DNA from: Oscillospiraceae bacterium
GTDB lineage: Bacteria; Bacillota; Clostridia; Oscillospirales; CAG-272
Direction of reading: 5' to 3'
DNA length: 40,256 nt
NCBI GenBank assembly: GCA_015063855.1
Contig: SVTI01000012.1
Coordinates: 1-40,256 of the forward strand
Shown here: one piece after another, positions 8,485 to 23,990 of the stretch
How positions within the stretch are numbered: the first letter of the stretch is position 1
Layout: every line of letters starts with the position of its first letter
Made by a program: the position numbers and the translations under genes
Notes under the pieces: model-generated
Seen by the model: the letters and a program-made list of their open reading frames with translations, nothing else
What the model was told of the DNA's origin: nothing
Database searches by the model: none

Positions 8485-8504
8485 ATAAATACGAACAGTA
8501 TAAT

Positions 8505-8608
8505 GTCTTTTTTCATCCGGACTATACCGTCGGTTACGGAATCACACCGTATCTGCTTTCGCTCGCGGACTTTACCGCCGATAGGGAATTTCACCCTGCC
8601 CCAAAGAC
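8505..8608 (-). promoter_or_regulatory. FMN riboswitch (RFN element) aptamer
   Basis: Minus strand GTCTTTGGGGCAGGGTGAAATTCCC...GGCGGTAAAGTCCGCGAGCG...GGTGTGATTCCGTAACCGACGGTATAGTCCGGATG; P1 GTCTTT/AAAGAC. Confidence 0.97.
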
Positions 8609-8713
8609 GTATATTTAGCTTCTTGATACATTATATACAAGAAAATGTTGTTTGTCAACAAATATCGGAAAAAATGTTGAAATTTACGGGTGCTCGAAGG
8701 AAAATATAATACT

Positions 8714-20507: not shown

Positions 20508-21818
20508 TCATTCGTTGCGGGCCGGCGCCTGCAACGGCAACGCACAATGAACACAGAACATACCGTTGTCCTCATAGAATTCTATCATGCCGTTGTATTT
20601 TTCAACGGTGTTTTTGATACTCTTGATACCGAAGCCGTGGTTGAGGGTATCCTTCTTTGATGATTTCAAATCGGGATTTTTGGAAAGTACCGATCCGTTG
20701 ATAGTGTTTTTACAGGTGATATTCTGATATTCGCCTTGCATACGAAAGACTATCTCAATTCGTTTTTCGGCGGAGTCTTGCACACCTTCAATAGCGTTGT
20801 TCAGCATATTGCCGAGAAGGGAGGTCAGATCGAGATCATCAATACCTTCAAGGTTATCCAATGCTCCCGATATTTCAAATTTGATATCCTCGTTCTGTGT
20901 CACCTTGGAATCGAGAATGAAGTCAGCCATGCGGTTTCCCGTGTGATAGAAGCGCTTTGTCTTTTCTAATTCGGATTGCTTGTCCGAAATGTATTTATTG
21001 ACCTCGTCATACTTGTGTTCTTCCATCAAACAATTGATATACATAAGATGCTCACGGATATCATGACGTGTAACACGTAAACGGGAATAGACATTTCCAA
21101 GCTCACGGTAACGTTCTTCCTCTAATTCTCGACGGTTGTTTATCAGCTCAAGCTCATGCTTGGCAGAGGCATTATGCATTGATTTTTTGAATAGTATAAG
21201 AACTGTAAAATTACTTATAAACAATACGCATATTACCGTGATAACGGCAACAGAATATCGGCTTATATCATATTCGATTCCAAACATCAGAAAAATGTAA
21301 AGAGTTAATACAGTACCGGCAGGGAAAACCAGATAAAGGAATAAATCGATTAAAGAAAAGCGTTCCCGTATAACAAATATACGGTTTATTATCATGAGGA
21401 CAGATATCATCGCAATTTTGCACAAGAAAATATATATGTATCTATGAAACGATGAAGCGAAGACGATTTCGTCAAATTTGTTGGGTGAAAACAGTGAATA
21501 TACATATAAGATCAGTGTATTTACTATTATCAATGTCAGCATATATATCAACGGGGAGAGAATCTTTGCAACTATTCTTTTATTTTTAATGCTGAATGCG
21601 AAGCCGTAGAGCATCAGTGTCATGATAACCACGTGGTACTCTGAAAAATGTGTATAATGGGTAAAATAGTTTGACAGTGTCAGAATGGATAAAACACTCA
21701 GAACAAAACCGATAATACTTTTCTTGTTATTTACAGATCCGTTATTAAATCGGAATACAAACCATACTCCGGCGAGGGCGTCGATAAAATTTGCTAAGTA
21801 TTCGATAGGATAATTCAT
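20508..21818 (-). CDS. GHKL-domain sensor histidine kinase (AgrC-like)
   Basis: N-terminal multi-TM region, RHDIREHLMYINCLMEE, LGNMLNNAIEGV, GFGIKSIKNTVEKYNG. Start MNYPIEY at 21818. Confidence 0.88.
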   Translation of the reverse strand: MNYPIEYLANFIDALAGVWFVFRFNNGSVNNKKSIIGFVLSVLSILTLSNYFTHYTHFSEYHVVIMTLMLYGFAFSIKNKRIVAKILSPLIYMLTLIIVNTLILYVYSLFSPNKFDEIVFASSFHRYIYIFLCKIAMISVLMIINRIFVIRERFSLIDLFLYLVFPAGTVLTLYIFLMFGIEYDISRYSVAVITVICVLFISNFTVLILFKKSMHNASAKHELELINNRRELEEERYRELGNVYSRLRVTRHDIREHLMYINCLMEEHKYDEVNKYISDKQSELEKTKRFYHTGNRMADFILDSKVTQNEDIKFEISGALDNLEGIDDLDLTSLLGNMLNNAIEGVQDSAEKRIEIVFRMQGEYQNITCKNTINGSVLSKNPDLKSSKKDTLNHGFGIKSIKNTVEKYNGMIEFYEDNGMFCVHCALPLQAPARNE

Positions 21819-21828
21819 GATCTCTCCC

Positions 21829-22566
21829 TTATTCCGAGAAGCGTTCACGTTCTCTCATAAATTTGATATATTTTGTCTTAAGCTCAGTATAATACTTTTT
21901 GGCTATGGGAAGACACTCCTTGTTTGACATCACTACATGATCCTCACGTATTGAATGGATATGCTTGATATTGATTACCGTTCCCACATTGATACGAATA
22001 AACAGGGAAGGATCGAGATCTGCTATCAATTCCTTAATACCTCGGCGGTCACGGTATTCTTCGTTTATGCATAGAATTTTTATGTAGTTTGTTGCCTTTT
22101 GCTTTTCTATGTATATCACTCTGTGAACCGATATTTGTGTACAATCGTTTCTGTTGATTAGTGTTATGTATTTGTCCGAGGACAGAAGGTTTTTTACTGC
22201 CGAGGTCAATGCCTCCTCAAGCTCATCGTTAAGATTGGTTTTCCTCAGATAACGGAAGGGGTTGAAGCGCAGAGAATAGAATACATATTCCTTGTAATTT
22301 GTAATAAATATGATAAGCGTTTCGGGATGTAGGTCATAGAAGCTCTGGGCAATCTTCATTCCGTCGATTTCAGGCATGCTTATATCAAGGAACAGAATAT
22401 CTATATATGTATTCTCGGCATAGCTGAGAAGTGCTTCGGGAGGATATATGTATTCGCACCTGATGATCATGTCGCAAAAGCTTTCATTCCTTGCAATGAT
22501 CGATTGCATATCACGGATAAGCTTGTCAGCAAAGACTCTGTCGTCATCACAAACTACAATTTTCAC
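21829..22566 (-). CDS. LytTR-family response regulator (AgrA-like)
   Basis: MKIVVCDDDRVFADKL, ILFLDISMPEIDGM; C-terminal LytTR-like VIYIEKQKATNYIKILCINEEYRDRRGIKEL...FIRINVGTVINIKHI. Confidence 0.9.
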   Translation of the reverse strand: MKIVVCDDDRVFADKLIRDMQSIIARNESFCDMIIRCEYIYPPEALLSYAENTYIDILFLDISMPEIDGMKIAQSFYDLHPETLIIFITNYKEYVFYSLRFNPFRYLRKTNLNDELEEALTSAVKNLLSSDKYITLINRNDCTQISVHRVIYIEKQKATNYIKILCINEEYRDRRGIKELIADLDPSLFIRINVGTVINIKHIHSIREDHVVMSNKECLPIAKKYYTELKTKYIKFMRERERFSE

Positions 22567-22733: not shown

Positions 22734-22952
22734 ATGGATTTTAACGATTATTTGTCAGAGCAGATATATCGTGGCAGAAAAAGGGCAGGGTATACCCAGG
22801 CTCATTTGTCACAGAAGCTCGGTGTTTCCGTGCGATGGTATCAGCGCATCGAGAAGGGCGAAAGGCTCCCCGGGGCAGTTGTCCTCATTAAGCTGATGCT
22901 GCTGCTTGATATTGACATCGAGGTGTTCAGAGACTATTTTATGCATAAATAA
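22734..22952 (+). CDS. Small XRE-family HTH regulator
   Basis: 72 aa: RKRAGYTQAHLSQKLGVSVRWYQRIEKGERLPGAVVLIKLMLLLDI. Confidence 0.88.
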   Translation: MDFNDYLSEQIYRGRKRAGYTQAHLSQKLGVSVRWYQRIEKGERLPGAVVLIKLMLLLDIDIEVFRDYFMHK

Positions 22953-22959
22953 ACCTTCA

Positions 22960-23187
22960 ATGATATTTTTCTTTTAGAAAAATGATATATTTCCAAAGGA
23001 AATATGATATATTGCTGACGCAATATGATATATACCAGAAGGGTATATGAAGGTAAAAAACACTCTGTTGCAGTTGAACAGAGTGTTTTTTAACATATTT
23101 TTGAAGAAAATATATCATAGGCGAAGCCTATATCATACACCAAGGGTGTATATCACAGATTTGCTCTGCAAATCTATATCATTACAG
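22960..23187. repeat. Mirror-symmetric hairpin array with ATGATATA/TATATCAT linkers
   Basis: Hairpins at 22966-22982, 22987-23005, 23009-23026, 23030-23048, 23117-23131, 23135-23151, 23157-23175 flanking the terminator at 23055-23091. Confidence 0.85.
23055..23091. terminator. Bidirectional intrinsic terminator at centre of hairpin array
   Basis: AAAAAACACTCTGTT-GCAGTTG-AACAGAGTGTTTTTT. Confidence 0.93.
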
Positions 23188-23189
23188 GT

Positions 23190-23990
23190 TTAAGGACGAA
23201 GTCCCATACCGCCCTCAAGGGTGAGGGTTTCGCCTGTGAGATACTTGAAGTCGGGGTGAGCAAGCTGAACACAAACTCTGCCGATCTCGGTCTCGGGATC
23301 GCCGAAGTGTCCTGCGGGAGGCATTTTAACATTTGCCTTAAATGCCTCGGGATAAGCCTTCTCAAAGTTTTCAAGCTGAGCTGTCCATGCAATGGGACAG
23401 ATGATATTTACGTTGATTCCGTCGGGAGCCCATTCTGTTGCAGCAACACGTGTAAGACCTCGGATGCCCTCCTTGGCAGCAGCATAAGCGCACTGACCGT
23501 AGTTTCCGAATAGTCCTGCACCGGATGCAAAGTTGATTACCGCACCTCTTGTCTCCTTGAGGTAGGGGTAGCACGCCTTCATATAATAGAAGGTTGCATA
23601 AAGTCCGGAATACATAGCGAGGTCAAACTGCTCTGTTGTATGATCTGCCAATGTAACACCGGAAGCGGAAGCCTGTGCGTTGTTGATAAGCACGTCTATT
23701 CTGCCGAAGGCCTCCATGGTCTTTGCGGCAACATCCTTTGCGATAGCCTCGTTATCCGCACCTGCGTTGATATCAGCGGCGAGGATAAGCACCTTGATAC
23801 CGTAGAGTCTCTCGAGCTCTTCCTTGGCATCCTCTAATTTCTTTACATTACGTCCTGTGATGACAAGGTTTGCACCTTCCTTGGCGTATGCAGTAGCGAT
23901 ACCGTAGCCGATAGAACCGCAACGTCCGTCGGATAGGGTCGCACGTCCGGCACCTGTAATTATGGCTGTCTTACCTGTTAAATATCCCAT
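23190..23990 (-). CDS. Short-chain dehydrogenase/reductase
   Basis: KTAIITGAGRATLSDGRCGSIGYGIA, INNAQ, YAAAK, C-terminal LTGETLTLEGGMGL. Confidence 0.9.
   Translation of the reverse strand: MGYLTGKTAIITGAGRATLSDGRCGSIGYGIATAYAKEGANLVITGRNVKKLEDAKEELERLYGIKVLILAADINAGADNEAIAKDVAAKTMEAFGRIDVLINNAQASASGVTLADHTTEQFDLAMYSGLYATFYYMKACYPYLKETRGAVINFASGAGLFGNYGQCAYAAAKEGIRGLTRVAATEWAPDGINVNIICPIAWTAQLENFEKAYPEAFKANVKMPPAGHFGDPETEIGRVCVQLAHPDFKYLTGETLTLEGGMGLRP

Follow-up and report, generated by a model that had tools for sequence, protein, structure and literature searches.

A mirrored hairpin array between convergent genes of an Oscillospiraceae bacterium as a probable ORF-less copy of an S23-linked mobile element

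We analyzed a mirror-symmetric array of small hairpins lying between two convergent genes in a 40,256-nt stretch of an Oscillospiraceae bacterium (GenBank assembly GCA_015063855.1, contig SVTI01000012.1, positions 1 to 40,256; hereafter the window). With a probability of roughly 0.77, this array is a non-autonomous copy of a family of mobile elements linked to the S23 gene (PF05635), lacking an open reading frame (ORF) and resembling a miniature inverted-repeat transposable element (MITE). S23 is the four-helix-bundle protein of the intervening sequences (IVS) of 23S rRNA. Complete members of the family consist of a single S23 gene between two mirror-image arrays of short repeats; the window's subtype has a repeat unit made up of a 6-nt linker and then a small hairpin, and sister subtypes have bare heptamers. 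The elements are dispersed, share the mirror architecture, are missing from orthologous empty sites and include a full copy with S23 as its only gene; array type agrees with the type of S23, and the two halves of an element match in their linkers.

The array in the window

The array spans 22958-23184 and is composed of four hairpins, a bidirectional terminator and four mirrored hairpins. Its parts and immediate neighbors are as follows.

22734-22952 (stop codon 22950..22952), + strand: upstream XRE-type gene (72 aa, HTH_3)
22958..23036, + strand: left half-array, four TGATAT linkers with hairpins; Rfam RF01706 match, 53.5 bits, E 5.9e-8
22965..22983, + strand: hairpin 1, ATTTTTCT-TTT-AGAAAAAT, from sequence
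22987..23005, + strand: hairpin 2, ATATTTCC-AAA-GGAAATAT, from sequence
23009..23026, + strand: hairpin 3, ATATTGC-TGAC-GCAATAT, from sequence
23028..23048, + strand: hairpin 4, ATATACC...GGTATAT, from sequence and RNA fold
23048..23053, + strand: TGAAGG, at the position where relatives have a TTAAGG anchor after their fourth hairpin
23054..23092, both strands: central bidirectional terminator-like hairpin, 16 bp, A6/T6 tracts
23095..23113, - strand: hairpin R4, ATATTTT-TGAAG-AAAATAT, from sequence; aligns with hairpin ATATTTTC..GAAAATAT of the related copy L053
23107..23184, - strand: right half-array, four ATATCA linkers; Rfam RF01706 match, 54.9 bits, E 2.5e-8
23117..23131, - strand: hairpin R3, ATAGGC-GAA-GCCTAT, from sequence
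23135..23151, - strand: hairpin R2, ATACACC-AAG-GGTGTAT, from sequence
23157..23175, - strand: hairpin R1, AGATTTGC-TCT-GCAAATCT, from sequence
23190-23990 (stop codon 23190..23192), - strand: convergent SDR gene

Both half-arrays independently exceeded the curated gathering score of Gut-1 (RF01706; 50 bits), a non-coding RNA (ncRNA) proposed computationally in 2010 from human-gut metagenomes only and considered neither cis-regulatory nor a switch (Weinberg et al., PMC2864571). Folded as single-stranded RNA, the array reached -84 kcal/mol, compared with -42.3 ± 4.3 kcal/mol in dinucleotide shuffles (z -9.75). With this fold and the two Gut-1 matches, the hairpins and linkers that a first-pass annotation had placed here lie far above chance. 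The array is thus real, but the count of seven hairpins in that annotation falls one short: there are eight, R4 having been overlooked. The motif ATGATATA occurs 15 times in the window, against 3.7 expected.

The TGATAT linkers begin at 22961, 22983, 23005 and 23026 on the + strand (n = 4) and the ATATCA linkers of the right side at 23112, 23130, 23150 and 23176 (n = 4), so that, as first proposed, the linker reverses across the center and the left set is able to pair with the right. Next to the center, at the anchor positions, TGAAGG stands on the left and a degenerate sequence on the right, where the related copy L053 carries CCTTAA; the TTAAGG position was established by comparison with L019, L038, L041, L045, L047, L053, L114 and L123. 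The central hairpin obtained a terminator-like score on the + strand, and its A6/T6 tracts give the same reading on the opposite strand, as judged from the sequence; it probably ends transcription of both the XRE and the SDR genes. The ORF list of the window contains no ORF, and hence no S23 gene, between the two half-arrays; S23 genes exist elsewhere in the same genome. The copy is intergenic and not inserted in a 23S rRNA helix.

Dispersal and mobility of the elements

We compared the window's own genome (G000, an assembly 84% complete) with five congeners (G001 to G005), many of the compared loci having been selected for matching Gut-1 or S23. Each of the six genomes contained 12-36 Gut-1 matches; together with a pattern scan of named genomes, this bears out the earlier statement that similar arrays occur in related Clostridia. 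Neighboring matches were mostly mirrors (33 of 40 pairs ran + then -), and most of these were separated by about 19 or 46 bases. Linkers were uniform in 67 of 74 distinct half-arrays, where shuffling expects 16 (maximum 25 in 2000 shuffles), and both halves carried the same linker in 41 of the 42 mirrored elements of the genus (15 expected). The 187 hairpins of the 74 half-arrays comprised 102 different stems, and stem changes preserved pairing. Each element thus keeps a single linker, which varies from one element to the next (TGAAAT, TGATAT or TGAATT), while stems are nearly free, in agreement with the constrained linkers and free stems first described. The selection on shape then suggested is supported in part: constraint is visible in the linkers and their mirror match, whereas individual hairpins do not require such selection, because quasi-palindrome correction during replication can also yield perfect, differing stems. 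Identical stems within one array were never seen among these half-arrays, where a rough estimate expects only about 2, and we do not claim avoidance.

Copies of the window's subtype occur at other loci in G002 and G004, with similarity confined to the element. An unbiased 398 kb of G003 contained 37 heptad arrays and 7 hairpin arrays. Almost all of them were intergenic, often abutting stop codons and without concentration at convergent ends. The expected enrichment at convergent 3' ends was likewise absent from array-bearing gaps (6 of 31 vs 43 of 200 among all gaps, p = 1). Hairpin arrays often start right where the T-run of a tRNA or mRNA terminator ends (L105, L104, L118, L121 and others); these terminators have different stems but the same AGAAAA...TTTTCAA edges. 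Insertion beside terminators may reflect a target preference. In L060 (G001:C49:100000-105500), whole mirrored elements and tRNA-type terminators are tandemly duplicated about 513 bp apart, and in L273 1840-2880 (G003:C34) a ferritin-like gene lies between near-identical ORF-less heptad elements (TATTCAC/AGTGAAT) in a composite-like arrangement.

Comparison of orthologous sites revealed that the elements are mobile. G002 and G003 share a 627-bp full element, [TGAATT-hairpin]4-TTAAGG-hairpin-S23-hairpin-CCTTAA-[hairpin-AATTCA]4, in which S23 is the only gene. It sits between ftsK-like and DJ-1-like genes (named by reading the sequence), and its two flanks lie 8 bp apart in G004; in G000, G001 and G005 the flanks likewise meet directly and the element is absent, and gain in one lineage is more parsimonious than loss in four. 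For two ORF-less copies on contig C34 of G003, the matching sites in G004 are empty, the flanks there being separated by 4 and -3 bp; one of the two copies has an empty site in G001 as well. The first-pass annotation had named decayed copies of a known mobile repeat as a finding that would refute it: the empty sites do reveal a mobile repeat, but one of a family not previously recognized as mobile.

At one C34 site (site A; L275 about 2050-2300 in G003 vs L303 in G002), the two genomes carry elements of the same architecture with different linkers (TGAAAT vs TGAATT) and entirely different stems, which points either to two independent insertions at the same position or to complete replacement. 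Stems also differ wholesale in the orthologous pair L040/L084. Beside the 3' end of the SDR gene, the position occupied by the array in the window, three congeners carry three different heptamer arrays, each internally uniform (L133, L134 and L135): (CTTTGCA)n in G003, (ATTCCGA)n in G004 and (AATTGAG)n in G002; G001 and G005 have neither the hairpin array nor a heptamer array.

The S23 gene in the genus and beyond

Within the genus, 13 of 37 S23 genes lie no more than 160 bp from a Gut-1 match; the expectation is about 0.5 even for a distance of 400 bp. The flanks of the remaining congeneric S23 genes show other array types, inverted on the opposite side: hairpin arrays with the linkers TGATGC, TGAAG, AGCTAAATT or AACGATGTT, or bare heptamers such as (ATGCAGA)n, (AATTCTC)n and (CACTATT)n. 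Across 149 genomes of the order, Gut-1 was detected in 57, S23 in 71 and both in 50 (odds ratio 24, p 2e-15). These order-level tests correct incompletely for relatedness; the association survives collapsing to genera, with S23 in 33 of 39 Gut-1 genera vs 15 of 46 others (p 1e-6). In an S23 tree, genes with hairpin arrays and genes with heptad arrays, classes assigned by eye from the flanks, separated with 2 changes, compared with 9.4 in shuffles, none of 500 being as low. Sister S23 genes have common linkers (TGAAAT in L105/L108/L118, TGATAT in L121/L128 and TGATGC in L103/L115), and some of these pairs may represent one insertion in two species.

A scan of named genomes for the Gut-1-like pattern returned mostly Clostridia from ruminants, plus scattered matches. 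In fifteen scattered genomes, picked for carrying this pattern and not a random sample (Bacteroidota, Cyanobacteria, Planctomycetota, Chlorobi, Akkermansia and others), S23 genes are flanked by mirrored short-repeat arrays. The inverted-alignment score between upstream and downstream flanks in these other phyla had a median of 22 for S23 vs 11 for other genes (p 8e-9), and two of the top-scoring "control" genes turned out to encode S23 as well, L143 according to a hidden Markov model and L157 from a reading of its translation. In the window's phylum, in a sample not picked by pattern, the medians were 20.5 and 12 (p 2e-13). Cyanobacterial S23 genes (L337, L345 and L350) carry heptamer arrays on their flanks in mirror orientation. 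According to Rfam, three mirrored-array S23 copies from the sample of the window's phylum lie inside large-subunit rRNA (L372, L384 and L382) and two inside class A RNase P RNA (L381 and L385). In the latter two (1229-2003), the RF00010 match covers 775 nt rather than 367, and the inserted arrays are inverted heptamers.

Repeat types described earlier resemble these elements. The window halves are built of the Gut-1 unit, linker plus small hairpin, of which the Rfam model has three. The original description (PMC2864571) presents Gut-1 as an independent ncRNA from uncultured bacteria of the human gut, whereas here it forms half of a mirrored mobile element, has several linker types, occurs in ruminant and other Clostridia and is tied to S23. 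The Coxiella IVS combines tandem heptamers beside S23 with terminal inverted repeats forming a 28-bp stem and excision by RNase III (PMC4990558). Like our elements, IVS of 23S rRNA have S23 as sole gene, inverted repeats at both ends, tandem heptamers by the gene and a closing stem. Known cases lie in rRNA helices, whereas the present family is mainly intergenic, reaches tens of copies, and includes ORF-less derivatives and hairpin-interrupted arrays. Literature searches limited to open-access papers found nothing on S23 together with mobile repeats beyond the Coxiella paper. By the title cited in PMC2858038 (Vioque 1997), cyanobacterial short tandemly repeated repetitive (STRR) heptamers also occur inside rnpB. 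STRR and the TAACTGA heptamers of Beggiatoaceae resemble our arrays in being short, tandem, of many sequences, mostly intergenic and suspected of spreading through an unknown element. The account of TAACTGA (PMC4679880) does not mention S23 and names no protein partner, whereas the present family is partnered with S23.

Proposed mechanism and alternative explanations

In the mechanism we propose, S23 would bind the arrays of its own element through the linkers, as RNA or single-stranded DNA, and aid movement; orphan copies such as that in the window would be moved by S23 in trans. In RNA, left linkers would pair with right linkers to form a trunk with projecting hairpins. Folding gave a long-range pairing gain above the shuffle mean in 16 of 17 mirrored elements and linker-to-linker pairs in the minimum free energy structure in 14 of 17, so that pairing between the halves is a prediction of these folds. 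Such a trunk may loop out a transcribed copy and keep insertions harmless; in rRNA, RNase III would cut it out. The window copy would then be a passenger, tolerated between convergent genes and also terminating transcription from both.

Several points weigh against this interpretation. The family has no linked transposase, integrase or reverse transcriptase that would account for the movement step. No clear target-site duplication was found; at site B the two flanks share 3 bp (TGA), possibly by coincidence. Six Gut-1 genera are without detected S23, some of their genomes being incomplete, and the array classes in the S23 tree depend on assignment by eye. At the window locus, conservation with all five congeners stops at about 23189-23190, and there is no direct empty-site comparison because the XRE neighbor has no match in congeners. 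Finally, a TGATAT/TTAAGG-type copy with S23 inside was not seen among the loci compared, and an autonomous partner of the window copy is therefore presumed.

The strongest alternative is a structured ncRNA or an element of the 3' untranslated region, kept for its RNA shape, for example as a transcription terminator or as a barrier to 3'-5' exonucleases downstream of convergent genes. The very strong folding, the central terminator, the frequent position of arrays against stop codons and the pairing maintained through stem changes would all suit such a role. It does not account for presence or absence at orthologous sites, dispersal to unrelated sites, the lack of enrichment at convergent ends or the S23 gene carried by full copies. 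Arrays also often lie behind an existing tRNA or mRNA terminator and would therefore not be co-transcribed with that gene. We consider this explanation unlikely for the origin of the array, and an RNA-shape role may be a secondary use of it.

An S23 retroelement using a host reverse transcriptase appears very unlikely. Avd, a relative of S23, works with the reverse transcriptase of diversity-generating retroelements; the S23 protein L357 also matches bAvd (PF22296, E 4e-13), and the copies inserted in rRNA and rnpB point to a stage as RNA. However, RVT_1 was not associated with S23 (p 0.86) and was not detected in many S23-rich genomes (G001, G042, G008, G019, G134, G135, G143 and G144), although diverged reverse transcriptases would escape such detection.

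Mobilization by a RAYT-type Y1 (HUH) transposase, as for repetitive extragenic palindromes (REP), bacterial interspersed mosaic elements (BIME) and REPINs, is highly improbable. Inverted hairpin pairs scattered between genes with one partner protein family do recall REPIN/RAYT (PMC3116915), whose non-autonomous pairs likewise depend on a single-gene partner elsewhere in the genome. Their partner is a Y1 transposase; the partner here is S23, and the present family does not need Y1 and has many uniform linkers with free stems. The window's own genome contains 5 Y1 matches, but Y1_Tnp is absent from G001 and G003, each with more than 30 Gut-1 matches, and across the 149 genomes it was not associated with Gut-1 or S23 (p 0.14 and 0.16).

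No more credible as a full account is that the stems are unselected, with template switching (quasi-palindrome correction) re-perfecting the palindromes and slippage homogenizing the linkers: this predicts perfect stems with diverse sequences (102 different stems in 187 hairpins) and fits the wholesale stem differences at site A and L040/L084, but leaves unexplained the linker shared by separated halves (41 of 42), the mirror symmetry, the S23 concordance and the clean insertion. Template switching can be a component process compatible with movement of an S23-linked element. CRISPR-like and attC arrays were set aside as models, since the units are hairpins of self-complementary sequence and S23 is the sole gene of full copies.

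Elsewhere in the window, a full-length FMN riboswitch (117 bits) lies at 8501-8612 (-), and apparent agr/LytTR-type response regulator and GHKL sensor kinase genes occupy 20508-22566 (-), just upstream of the XRE gene. PyrR and JA03 Rfam matches were weak and under the cut-off, and were taken as chance.

At somewhat less than even odds, Gut-1 RNAs, cyanobacterial STRRs, other dispersed intergenic heptamers and the S23 IVS of 23S rRNA and rnpB form one phylum-spanning mobile class, in which a small four-helix-bundle protein recognizes fast-changing mirror-symmetric arrays and moves them without a known transposase, integrase or reverse transcriptase. To our knowledge, for about 30 years S23 IVS have been described as selfish elements with no known means of spread, and heptamer repeats in many genomes have had no explanation, nor Gut-1 an assigned function. 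Until now S23 has figured chiefly as a curious insertion in ribosomal RNA genes; here it would connect several unexplained kinds of bacterial repeats. With S23 IVS, heptamer repeats and Gut-1 linked, there is a gene that can be deleted, a set of empty sites as reference and a definite prediction: an S23 protein should bind its own element's linkers. Were S23 alone to drive movement, this would be a transposition mechanism without a known enzyme.
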